Assembly (NCBI GenBank): GCA_018055565.1
Contig: JAGPHI010000004.1
Coordinates: 1 to 14,291, forward strand
Length of the DNA: 14,291 bases
DNA from: Oscillospiraceae bacterium
GTDB lineage: Bacteria; Bacillota; Clostridia; Oscillospirales; Ruminococcaceae
Direction: 5' to 3'
The translations under genes and the position numbers were made by a program. Below the pieces are notes generated by a model that was given only the letters and a program-made list of their open reading frames with translations, was not told the DNA's origin and ran no database searches. This document shows positions 1 through 13,020 of this stretch, in pieces; the stretch's first letter is position 1, and the number at the start of each line of letters is the position of its first letter.

Positions 1-210
1 TTTGAGCTGTTTGTCGAATGCGAGGCTTTCCTCGCCGAGTGTTCCTGCGCTGGGCGCAAGATGCTTTGGATTTTTGCGTTTTGGGCCGTCTAGGCGATAT
101 TGTCGGCCATTTGCAATCAGCACATAGCCGTCTTTTTCGCCTGTTACCACATAAATGCCCACATCGCGCCCTTTTAGTGTGCGCACCAATTGTCCTCTTG
201 CGAAGTTCAT
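1..210 (-). CDS. KOW-domain RNA-binding protein (L14e/L24-like), 3' end off window
   Basis: This is a small basic protein of the KOW-domain family that often sits between map and infA in Clostridia. Seventy residues are visible from the ATG at 210, and the C-terminus lies beyond the left edge. It opens MNFARGQLVRTLKGRDVG, then continues IYVVTGEKDGYVLIANGR, the usual KOW beta-barrel pattern, followed by a basic stretch (RLDGPKRKNPKH). An in-frame ATG at 222 adds four residues (MSKT), but it directly abuts the AAAGGA ribosome binding site. The ATG at 210 sits 12 nt after GGA and matches the family N-terminus better. A role in RNA or ribosome binding is inferred from the fold; the exact function is not known to me. 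It lies 102 nt after map, behind a repeat-like leader shared with rpmD. Confidence 0.82.
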   Translation of the reverse strand, partial: MNFARGQLVRTLKGRDVGIYVVTGEKDGYVLIANGRQYRLDGPKRKNPKHLAPSAGTLGEESLAFDKQLK

Positions 211-219
211 GGTTTTGGA

Positions 220-308
220 CATTCCTTTCTTGGGGCGTTGTGCCGCTTTCGGCTTTGCCGAAACCTCGCCGTTTTTACAGCAATCAGGCACAAATCCCAA
301 AGCGTGAA
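220..308 (-). repeat. Copy 2 of an ~85-nt repeat-like leader ahead of the KOW gene
   Basis: Read on the minus strand, this 89-nt stretch begins TTCACGC and ends CCCCAAGAAAGGAATG. It resembles the stretch ahead of rpmD (3967-4049). By hand alignment I count at least 53 identical positions over about 90 columns, concentrated at both ends. It contains a 7-bp hairpin (TTTCGGC at 247-253, GCCGAAA at 257-263). A small AAAGC/GCTTT hairpin (299-313) overlaps its left end and the map stop codon. Whether this is a dispersed genomic repeat or a shared regulatory leader cannot be decided from one window. Confidence 0.6.
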
Positions 309-312
309 GCTT

Positions 313-1080
313 TTACCCTTCAAACTTTTCCCGCGGCACTGTTAAGATTTCGGGGCCGTTTGATGTGATGGCGATGGTGTGCTCAAAATGAGCAGACAGC
401 CCGCCGTCCACAGTTTTTACGGTCCATTCATCAGACAATGTTTTCACCACATGGCTTTTTTCATTCACCATCGGTTCAATGGCAAGCGTCATGCCGCTTA
501 CTAAGCGCGCACCGCGCCCCGCCGGACCAAAATTGGGTACCTCCGGTTCCTCGTGCAGCTTTCTGCCCACGCCGTGGCCCACAAAGGTGCGCACCACGGA
601 AAAGCCGTTTTGCTCCACACAGTTTTGCACCGCTGCACCGATATCTCCCACGCGCGCGCCCGTCACCGCCGCGGCAATGCCAAGAGCGAGGGACTCGCGT
701 GTAACATCCATCAATGTTTGCGCTGCGTTTGAAACTGTGCCGCAAGCAAAGGTAGCCGCGTTGTCTCCGTTAAAGCCGTTTATCTCGGCGCCCACATCAA
801 TGCTGACGATATCGCCCTCTTTCAGCACAATGCTTTTAGAGGGAATGCCGTGAATCACCGTGTCGTTTACCGAAATGCAGGCCGAGCCCGGAAACCCGCC
901 GTAGCCTTTAAAGCTGGGTTTTGCGCCCTGCCCTACGATATAATCGTAGATCAGTTTGTCGAGGTAAGCAGTTGTGATACCGGGGCGGACAGCTTTTCCT
1001 GCCAATGCCAGCACTTCGGCTGATATGTGGCAGGCAAGGCGCATCTCATCGATTTCCTTTGCCGTTTTTACAGATATCAC
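313..1080 (-). CDS. map: Methionine aminopeptidase, type I
   Basis: This enzyme removes the initiator methionine from nascent proteins as they leave the ribosome. The 255-residue protein has the pita-bread fold without an N-terminal extension. All five expected metal ligands can be placed: D95, D106, H169, E202 and E233. The catalytic-site histidines H77 and H176 are also present, each two positions before the E. coli numbering. The start is GTG, sharing one base with the adk TAG stop (TAGTG), and GGAGG lies about 7 nt upstream inside adk. This implies translational coupling to adk. The order secY-adk-map is standard in Firmicutes. The next gene starts about 100 nt downstream, after a repeat-like leader. 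Confidence 0.97.
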   Translation of the reverse strand: MISVKTAKEIDEMRLACHISAEVLALAGKAVRPGITTAYLDKLIYDYIVGQGAKPSFKGYGGFPGSACISVNDTVIHGIPSKSIVLKEGDIVSIDVGAEINGFNGDNAATFACGTVSNAAQTLMDVTRESLALGIAAAVTGARVGDIGAAVQNCVEQNGFSVVRTFVGHGVGRKLHEEPEVPNFGPAGRGARLVSGMTLAIEPMVNEKSHVVKTLSDEWTVKTVDGGLSAHFEHTIAITSNGPEILTVPREKFEG

Positions 1081-3507: not shown

Positions 3508-3957
3508 TTAGCGCTTTGTAACCACAACCATGTGAGAAATTTTTGCGATTTTGCCTTTGGTGGCTTCATTGTCGGGCTGCACGGTGGTGCTGCCCACTTT
3601 GTTAAGCCCGAGGCTCTTCGCGGTGGCAATCTGATTTTTGCTGCGGCCTACAAGACTACGCACAAGCTTGATGCAAATGCCGGTCTTTTCCGCGCTGTCA
3701 GTTTTTTGGGCGGGCGCCTTTTTAGCGGGCGCGGGCTTTTCGCTGACGGCTTTCTTTGCGGGCTCCTTCTTTTCGGCGGCCGGCTTTGCAGCAGGCGCTT
3801 TCTTTGCGGGAGCTTTTTTCTCGGCGGCCGGTTTTTCGGCAGCCGTTTTCTTTGCGGGGGCTTTTGCGGCGGCCGGCTTCTCAGCGGCCGGTTTCTTTGC
3901 GGCGGCCGATTTTTCCGAAGTTGCCTTCGTGGCCACTTTCTTTGTTTCTTCTGCCAT
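3508..3957 (-). CDS. rpmD: 50S ribosomal protein L30 with a long repetitive basic N-terminal tail
   Basis: The last 58 residues (from TGICIKLVRSLVGRSK to the end) are a complete bacterial L30, a 23S rRNA-binding protein normally about 58-60 residues long. About 91 residues of Lys, Ala, Pro and Glu precede it, likely disordered. Counting from an upstream in-frame ATG at 3969 (residue 1), residues 26-89 form four imperfect repeats of 15-17 residues of the type K-x-AAEKPAA-x-K-x-APAK, and the L30 core starts near residue 96. I use the ATG at 3957 (MAEETKK, 149 residues). The ATG at 3969 abuts the AAAGGA ribosome binding site, whereas 3957 is 12 nt from it. The tail is in frame with L30 and has no stop, so it should be translated. 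Its function is unknown. The gene is preceded by an unusual 120-nt leader. Confidence 0.93.
   Translation of the reverse strand: MAEETKKVATKATSEKSAAAKKPAAEKPAAAKAPAKKTAAEKPAAEKKAPAKKAPAAKPAAEKKEPAKKAVSEKPAPAKKAPAQKTDSAEKTGICIKLVRSLVGRSKNQIATAKSLGLNKVGSTTVQPDNEATKGKIAKISHMVVVTKR
3684..3957 (-). repeat. Degenerate in-frame repeats encoding the L30 N-terminal tail
   Basis: This DNA is built from recurring units containing CGGCCG and CGCAAAG-like words, with a main spacing near 45-48 nt. It encodes the AAEKPAAEKKAPAKK-type peptide repeats of the tail. The pattern suggests growth by unequal recombination or replication slippage within the coding sequence. Base composition is richer in GC than the adjoining L30 core because Ala, Pro and Lys (AAG) codons dominate. 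Copy number may vary between strains. Confidence 0.75.
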
Positions 3958-3966
3958 AATAAAATT

Positions 3967-4049
3967 CATTCCTTTCTGGGGAATTGAGCCGTTTCGGCGA
4001 AGCCGAATGCACGTCGCTCCGACGCGCTAGGCGCAAAACCCGGCGTGAA
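3967..4049 (-). repeat. Copy 1 of an ~85-nt repeat-like leader ahead of rpmD
   Basis: On the minus strand this 83-nt stretch begins TTCACGC and ends CCCCAGAAAGGAATG, matching the ends of the stretch before the KOW gene (220-308). It holds a 6-bp hairpin with a 3-nt loop (TTCGGC 3993-3998, GCCGAA 4002-4007) and a 5-bp hairpin (CGTCG 4012-4016, CGACG 4020-4024). The two copies share the segment from the first hairpin through the ribosome binding site to the first ATG. The middle part is poorly conserved. Confidence 0.6.
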
Positions 4050-4066
4050 AAATATTTTTTTCACGC
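4043..4066 (-). other. Perfect 10-bp intercistronic hairpin after rpsE
   Basis: GCGTGAAAAA and its exact complement flank a 4-nt loop, 11 nt after the rpsE stop. No T-run follows on either strand, so it does not look like a normal intrinsic terminator. It could stabilise an RNA 3' end, act as a processing site, or cause partial attenuation between rpsE and rpmD. Confidence 0.6.
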
Positions 4067-4077
4067 TGAGTTGCCCC

Positions 4078-4578
4078 CTAACCCAAAATTTCTTTTACGG
4101 TTTTGCCGCGCTTTGCAGCGACCTGCTCTGCGCTTTGCAGCGACACAAGGCCGTTGATTGTTGCAGTAACAACGTTGCAGGGGTTATTGGTGCGCTGGCA
4201 CTTGGTACGAATGTCGCGGATACCCGCAACTTCTAATACCGCGCGCACTGCGCCGCCCGCGATAACGCCTGTACCGGCAGCAGCCGGACGAAGCAGCACG
4301 CGGCCCGCGCCGAAGATACCAACTGTTTCATGGGGAATGGTGGTACCTTTCATTGCGATGCGATGCAGATTCTTTTTCGCATCCTCGATGCCCTTGCGGA
4401 TTGCTTCGGGTACTTCACCGGCTTTGCCCAGGCCGAAGCCCACAACGCCGTTGCCATCGCCGACAACCACGAGCGCGGAGAATTTGAAAATGCGGCCGCC
4501 CTTAACGGTTTTGGATACACGGTTGATTGCAACAACCTTCTCCTGTAAATCTAAAGTAGACGCGTCAATGATTTCCAT
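4078..4578 (-). CDS. rpsE: 30S ribosomal protein S5
   Basis: S5 is a 30S body protein involved in decoding fidelity. The 166-residue protein has the N-terminal dsRBD-like domain, with [15 protein letters not shown] (15-29) forming the loop associated with spectinomycin resistance. [22 protein letters not shown] (48-69) and the C-terminal [16 protein letters not shown] (129-144) follow. A TTG one codon earlier (4581) would be a possible start, but the ATG at 4578 is preferred because AAGGAGG lies 6 nt upstream. The gene begins 11 nt after rplR. It is followed by an unusually long gap, whereas rpsE and rpmD are normally nearly adjacent. Confidence 0.98.
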
Positions 4579-12703: not shown

Positions 12704-13020
12704 TGTGTTCGCCTCCTTTAATTTTTGTGCTTTGGATGGGGCTGGATAAATACTGAACACTGCGCCGGGTGTACCACCGTAAGGCATCAGAAAAGCCGGT
12801 GAACCGCACAGCAGTTCCCCCGGACAAGACTTTGCAAATTAGGGTGGACATTGGTTTTCACAAGGAAAACGTATCCCTTTGCATCAGTATTGTTTCGCCC
12901 GGTTTAAAATCGGACATACTCGGCGGAAATTCCCCTCACAAAGTGAGGCCACCTCCCGCGTCAACGCATATCTAGCCTGCAAATACACATAGGCATTCAC
13001 AGTCGCCTAATAATAATACC
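12704..13020 (-). promoter_or_regulatory. Long structured leader of the S10 operon
   Basis: About 300 nt without a convincing gene precede rpsJ. Three hairpins are visible. A 6-bp stem with a 3-nt loop lies at 12934-12948 (CCTCAC/GTGAGG). A composite 51-nt stem-loop lies at 12833-12883. An interrupted stem lies at 12796-12823 (CCGG and GAAC paired with GTTC and CCGG). An 11-codon GTG frame (12904-12939) behind GGGAGGTG could be a leader peptide, but support is weak. Such length and structure fit a regulated untranslated leader of a ribosomal operon. The ligand, if any, is unknown. Confidence 0.5.
12833..12883 (-). promoter_or_regulatory. Composite stem-loop in the rpsJ leader
   Basis: On the transcript, UGCAAA at the 5' end pairs with UUUGCA at the 3' end. 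A GGG/CCC pair block follows across a 3-nt bulge. An asymmetric internal loop (4 nt and 9 nt) then leads to a 6-bp GUUUUC/GAAAAC stem with a 5-nt loop. The bulge and asymmetric loop are typical of protein-binding RNA. Function is inference only. Confidence 0.45.

Follow-up and report, generated by a model that had tools for sequence, protein, structure and literature searches.

Two leaders of like layout on the minus strand of the window (the whole stretch of 14,291 nucleotides that was analysed), copy A ahead of rpmD and copy B ahead of the gene that follows map, are members of one dispersed family, which explains the two odd gaps in this ribosomal operon. Both are probably copies of a single structured and mobile leader that integrates at sites of translation initiation and comes with a Shine–Dalgarno (SD) sequence of its own. 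For the family as a whole, the best reading is that of a folded cassette of approximately 110 letters, with its own ribosome-binding site, that has become dispersed across genomes within a group of gut bacteria. As a rule, small interspersed repeats are tolerated at the least harmful places. The leader element instead directly abuts start codons, among them those of recA, alaS and one ribosomal protein gene, where it would supply a usable ribosome-binding site.

The Two Leaders in the Window

The window belongs to genome G000, a 1.49-Mb assembly that is 69.6% complete. The features of both leaders are listed below; P1 to P4 are the helices of the element, SD2 is its own SD sequence and SD1 the native one upstream of it.

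3958..4066, minus strand: copy A, from P1 to the last base before the rpmD start codon (model R3, E = 5.8e-16 for 3967–4066)
4043..4066, minus strand: copy A hairpin P1 (GCGTGAAAAA/TTTTTCACGC), a 10-nt perfect inverted repeat with covariation across copies
4030..4041, minus strand: copy A P2 5′ strand (GGGTTTTGCGCC), from fold and covariation
4009..4027, minus strand: copy A hairpin P3, from fold and covariation
3993..4007, minus strand: copy A hairpin P4 (TTCGGC/GCCGAA), from fold and covariation
3979..3990, minus strand: copy A P2 3′ strand (GGCTCAATTCCC), from fold and covariation
3970..3976, minus strand: copy A SD2, GAAAGGA, from sequence and family-wide conservation
4074..4078, minus strand: putatively decayed native rpmD SD1, GGGGG (GGAGG in the nearest relatives), from a 79-locus comparison and sequence
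3508..3957, minus strand: rpmD, ribosomal protein L30 with a Lys/Ala/Pro-rich N-terminal extension (Pfam PF00327, E = 5.7e-16)
211..325, minus strand: copy B, from P1 to the last base before the start of the gene after map (R3, E = 1.1e-8 for 220–325)
302..325, minus strand: copy B hairpin P1, imperfect, from R3 alignment and sequence
223..229, minus strand: copy B SD2, GAAAGGA, from sequence
1..210, minus strand: gene after map, truncated by the window edge (open frame from ATG 210; no Pfam match at 1e-3)

The preliminary description had placed the two stretches at 3967–4049 and 220–308, sharing TTCACGC, a TTCGGC/GCCGAA hairpin and an identical GAAAGGAATG end. All of these are present in the sequence at those positions, TTCACGC being the 3′ arm of hairpin P1. 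The stretches are real and the limits too narrow, as the elements run from 4066 to 3958 (A) and from 325 to 211 (B). The ATG that had been called decoy-like is found in both copies, 12 nt upstream of the true ATG and in frame with it, and the start codons directly behind the elements are ATG 3957 for copy A and ATG 210 for copy B. The 5′ arm of P1 in copy B overlaps the last codons and the stop codon (315–313) of map, and the SD1 of rpmD overlaps the rpsE stop codon by one base. The gene behind copy B had been labeled a KOW gene, a label that found no backing in the Pfam search of the truncated frame. In L30 (3508–3957, minus strand), the Lys/Ala/Pro-rich N-terminal extension covers about 90 residues, and the protein also matches histone-like HC2 below the cut-off; some relatives also have a long N-terminal part.

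A Dispersed Family of Repeats

A covariance model built from 20 copies, A and B included (R1), gives 66 matches at E ≤ 0.1 in G000 and 54 at 0.001, among them copies outside ribosomal operons; 150 of 2113 candidates were scored, so that the copy count is a floor. BLAST searches of G000 with A and then with B list 41 and 45 matches, respectively, at E ≤ 10, many of them short, and B is absent among the 41 matches listed for copy A alone. The link between A and B is drawn through the family and through model R3. R3 was built to lessen circularity and consists of 57 rows, all from other genomes, with a structure line that derives from the first alignment, which contained both copies. Run on the window with filters off, it finds A at E = 5.8e-16 and B at E = 1.1e-8; the next match, at 0.013, is P1 read on the opposite strand. 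Over 60 other G000 loci, R3 gives 62 matches at E ≤ 0.01, three of which are the opposite strand of real copies. The stretches as first delimited align locally with a score of 44, compared to a maximum of 27 over 2000 shuffles of one copy (33 with longer limits). Rfam gave no match over the element, either in the window at the gathering thresholds or in 20 loci at E ≤ 0.5.

Over 61 genomes (G000 included), R1 at E ≤ 0.001 finds 50 matches in G000, 14 in G033 and one each in G014 and G026. Wider searches with model R2, in which 10 candidates were scored per genome so that copy and genome counts are floors, detect the element at 0.001 in 28 of the 396 genomes searched from the bacterial family, which represent 21 of the 126 genera, and at 1e-4 in 16 of the 394 searched from the order, 13 of which belong to seven other families. 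For 81 of 88 copies, the nearest neighbor lies in the same genome (shuffled mean 16, maximum 29), which points to expansion of the copies within genomes rather than descent with the gene.

Fold and Second Shine–Dalgarno Sequence

The family fold consists of hairpin P1, followed by the P2 stem (GGGTTTTGTGCC...GGCACAATNCCC) with hairpins P3 and P4 inside it, and then by GAAAGGA and the start codon. The predicted minimum free energy is −43.9 kcal/mol for copy A (z = −4.71) and −39.9 kcal/mol for copy B (z = −3.50). Covariation of the stem positions, a check suggested in the preliminary description, was assessed over 108 matches (107 distinct rows) from many genomes. There, 92.3% of the cells pair, and changes on both sides occur in 29 of 31 pairs. 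Doubly changed cells number 613 as opposed to 174.5 in shuffles, none of 500 shuffles being as high, and sliding the partners by 1–3 columns yields at most 109; in these counts, as in every other given here, copies within one genome are non-independent. Smaller alignments agree, with one of five measures being unremarkable in the first 20-copy alignment (further pair types, 63/500 shuffles). The rows of alignments A3–A5 were aligned to the model, biasing them towards it, and a MAFFT alignment of the first 20 copies gives the same picture; A4 holds the 108 matches from 99 chosen loci, a subset of the copies. Such strong covariation indicates that the P1–P2(P3,P4) fold is under selection.

SD2 is nearly invariant across the family, and so is the TTTC of P1 in the first alignment. 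The paired parts are highly variable and, by eye, there is no conserved unpaired core apart from SD2. The predicted probability of SD2 being unpaired is 0.77 in copy A and 0.52 in copy B, with a range of 0.34–0.80 over the seven copies folded. According to these predictions, SD2 is not clearly free in all copies. Some copies carry an extra hairpin between P4 and the 3′ strand of P2 (the L012 copies, L011 323–442 and L132 1500–1620).

Position at Translation Starts

The element is positioned at start codons. Behind 78 of 99 non-tandem copies (the 108 matches after removal of eight tandem units and of a single copy located at a contig end), an ATG at a distance of 2–14 nt opens an ORF of at least 60 codons, compared to 8.5% for random places in the same loci and 3 of 99 when looking outward from the other end. 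In several of the 21 remaining copies, a small additional hairpin separates SD2 from the start. Such a hairpin (e.g., CTTTCG..CGAAAG) is seen in L208, L211, L213, L308, L309, L311, L313, L328–L331 and L333. Some copies have no clear gene behind them (L157 and, by eye, L252).

The target genes are unrelated and involve translation, purine and glycogen metabolism, motility and transport. From the 65 downstream proteins of at least 60 codons in the G000 list, 30 were picked for an NCBIfam scan. The best matches above the cut-off include acetate kinase, AlaS, RecA, PurF, PurM, PgsA, GlgC, GlgD, ProA, YchF, QueA, peptidyl-tRNA hydrolase, dephospho-CoA kinase and V-ATPase subunit B; GatA and FliS fall below it, and one of the 30 is without a match at 1e-8. 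No ribosomal protein is found among the 30 scanned. An inherited ribosomal autoregulatory leader was considered as well and rejected, as the examined relatives are without the element and the scanned targets are non-ribosomal except for rpmD. In L121 (812–1188), a T-box-like match below the gathering threshold lies directly before the alaS copy of the element, giving two stacked leaders.

Upstream of the element, a second SD-like sequence is often present. A run of this kind lies within 16 nt upstream of P1 in 61 of 108 copies, as opposed to 10 of 108 in a control window. Leaving aside the eight later tandem units, the counts are 54/100 vs. 10/100, composed of 13/38 vs. 3 in G000 and 41/62 vs. 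7 in other genomes. When fewer motifs and a window of 24 nt were used in a previous count, the result was 24/36 vs. 4–6 in other genomes and 18/60 vs. 5–8 in G000. The native SD is kept in all eight copies of genome G184, and that of rpmD is degraded. The pattern fits an upstream SD1 that would be a relic decaying with time after insertion. Tandem units (C205 and C289 in G000; G120, G064 and G729) start a few bases behind the SD of the preceding unit.

Element-Free Sites in Relatives

At the orthologous sites, relatives of G000 are without the element. R1 found no copy in any of the 80 secY loci of the named relatives, which are of other genera in the rpmD comparison; rpsE and rpmD were both found in 79 of these loci. 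In all 18 nearest relatives (L037–L054), rpmD starts at a distance of 14 nt from the rpsE stop and has its own SD, as TAAGGAGGCAGTGACCA-ATG. In the window, the junction reads TAGGGGGCAACTCA, element, ATGGCAGAAG, and the distance from stop to start is 120 nt. Farther relatives vary, a few having longer gaps between rpsE and rpmD without a model match (e.g., L082, with the start 77 nt after the stop). In relatives that have the gene after map, it starts within or adjoining the map stop in the cases inspected (L039, L045, L048), compared to a gap of 102 nt in the window; in the two nearest relatives (L037, L038), this gene is apparently absent, as judged by eye.

G184 (genus g93) contains eight near-identical copies that agree over the entire unit, which opens with the first P1 base and stops directly before the ATG. 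The unit measures 112 nt in seven of them and 114 nt in one, and their flanks do not match each other in blastn. When the flanks are joined with the element taken out, a contiguous match is found in the sister species G251 at four of the eight sites. Three of these are clean, with the native SD on the left, the ATG on the right and between two and about eight spacer bases lost; the coding start of the fourth (L249) is a different one in G251. Over four genomes of the genus, the G184 unit has 10, 4, 0, and 0 matches, and G251 has a single full-length copy at 99%; the sister genomes G092 and G304 are without the unit. The genomes are single assemblies, and such filled and empty sites suggest transposition as the means of spread.

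Proposed Mobilization and Rival Explanations

The mobile leader would work as follows. A non-autonomous element of about 110 nt would insert, in a single orientation, between the SD1 and the start codon of a gene, dropping a few spacer bases, so that its 3′ end abuts the start codon. SD2 (GAAAGGA) at this 3′ end would act as a working ribosome site and keep the gene translatable, and SD1 would decay later. Tandem arrays would result from repeated insertion by the same rule, which they fit because each new unit begins a few bases past the previous SD. The fold may be kept as a handle recognized by a trans-acting mobilizing factor, on single-stranded DNA or RNA, or alternatively as an insulator that shields SD2 from upstream structure and keeps it usable.

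Searches for the mover have been negative within their scope. No autonomous partner or enzyme was found, nor a longer autonomous form among the matches to the G184 unit in the four genomes of its genus. Y1_Tnp, the domain of REP and IS200/IS605-type transposases, has no match in G184, which holds the near-identical copies, or in the 69.6% complete G000, and mobilization of the Y1/REP type was rejected on this ground; the domain is present in G033, G105, G120 and G251. In G033, the 34 Y1_Tnp matches are mostly contig-end fragments, and IS200-type copies may break this assembly. The outer ends of three copies have no terminal inverted repeats (TIRs) beyond 6 nt of A/T (in the G184 copy), the inverted repeats being internal helices, and the comparison of filled and empty sites reveals no target-site duplication (TSD), with spacer loss instead. 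Carriage by phages or plasmids was also rejected, as neither phages and plasmids (copy A, distant mode) nor viral contigs (one exact P1 pattern) gave a match. A bolder proposal stands at slightly below an even chance: that of a mobile element which targets the interval between SD and ATG in one orientation and flush with the start codon, carries an SD, is mobilized through its fold as RNA or single-stranded DNA by a non-Y1 enzyme, and rewrites the start regions of dozens of housekeeping genes in its hosts. The location of the element raises testable questions: how it finds start codons, which enzyme moves it, and how bacteria maintain expression once an essential gene has had its translation start region replaced.

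Other explanations have to be weighed against the mobile leader. The family could represent a cis-regulatory RNA class, i.e., a riboswitch or protein-binding leader that governs a regulon and is passed on together with its genes. Such a class would share the RNA-type fold with covariation and the location of most copies upstream of genes. Moreover, alaS is a target in G000 and, by eye from N-terminal sequence, in G152 (L205), V-ATPase subunit B of G000 has a look-alike in G033 (L155, by eye), and the nearly invariant TTTC belongs to a P1 whose 3′ arm (UCUUUC) could sequester SD2 (GAAAGG), a pairing that is possible by eye. However, the element is not retained at orthologous genes (0/80 secY loci, element-free rpsE–rpmD junction), copies group by genome, targets span unrelated functions, and the widely varying paired parts surround, by eye, no conserved unpaired core beyond SD2, so that we regard this class as unlikely. 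The preliminary description had left the choice between a dispersed repeat that supplies a ribosome-binding site and a common RNA control element. The former is now strongly supported by the many copies outside ribosomal operons, their placement at start codons and the element-free sites in relatives. From the latter, the shared RNA-type fold is real, whereas a common regulon is unsupported by targets this unrelated and by clustering per genome.

It is quite improbable that SD1 and an NTG in P1 start a leader ORF of 30–40 codons, running through the fold to near the main start and allowing coupled translation from the native SD. The spacing from SD1 to NTG does peak at 7 nt, and the frame is open to SD2 in 65 of 93 NTG-bearing copies, compared to 41/93 for frame +2 and 17.4/93 in shuffles. 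In G000, however, openness of the leader frame does not exceed that of frame +2 (24 vs. 26 of 35), many frames end early, and 15 of 108 copies are without NTG. When only the stretch behind P1 is considered, the copies with an open frame 0, +1, and +2 number 42, 29, and 33 of 58 in other genomes and 23, 24, and 26 of 35 in G000, so that much of the contrast stems from the conserved P1 loop. A conserved leader peptide was rejected, as frames shift between copies and the signal is largely gone behind P1. A chance resemblance between two GC-rich gaps that have ordinary ribosome-binding sites, for which the absence of B among the 41 matches listed for A could be cited, is already refuted for practical purposes, given that none of the 2000 shuffles reaches the A–B score, that the other-genome model R3 finds both copies and that the family counts 66 matches.

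Relation to Known Elements

Among known systems, REP/REPIN sequences moved by RAYT (TnpA-REP) transposases are, as commonly described, short, palindromic, non-autonomous and present in many copies that form genome-specific populations. The REP unit is a palindrome of 20–40 nt with a GTAG/CGTC tag. The leader element is likewise short, palindromic and non-autonomous and has many copies in genome-specific populations, but it is about 110 nt long with a four-helix fold, lies at start codons with an SD and does not fit a tagged palindrome of that length. Furthermore, the genomes with recent copies would be expected to contain a Y1 HUH transposase, for which G184 and the 69.6% complete G000 gave no match. 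In the account consulted, pneumococcal BOX, RUP and SPRITE repeats are reported to be enriched in the gaps separating convergent genes, and TIR and TSD are given as features of MITEs (PMC3049150). The leader element resembles MITEs and these repeats as a small interspersed structured repeat in which a transposase gene is absent, and it resembles MITEs in being dispersed, non-autonomous and missing from the corresponding sites of relatives. It differs from them by the lack of outer TIRs beyond 6 nt of A/T and of a TSD, and by its start-codon location. It is filed here as an element that acts like a small dispersed non-autonomous repeat and falls outside MITEs and REPs by the features compared, its new part being start-codon targeting. 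No description of such an element was found in the open-licence papers searched.

For annotation, the covariance model can be applied to gaps of about 110 nt in genomes of the order, where the in-frame GGAATG could be mistaken for a start. Rfam ribosomal-protein leaders (e.g., S10-Clostridia, RF03136) are, like copy A, structured RNAs 5′ of a ribosomal protein gene, and compensatory helix changes of the kind expected for structured RNA occur in the element; unlike these leaders, it has no Rfam match, and 0 of 30 scanned downstream proteins are ribosomal. Elsewhere in the window, at 12895–12972 on the minus strand, an S10-Clostridia leader (RF03136) is matched with 35.9 bits against a gathering threshold of 35.1.
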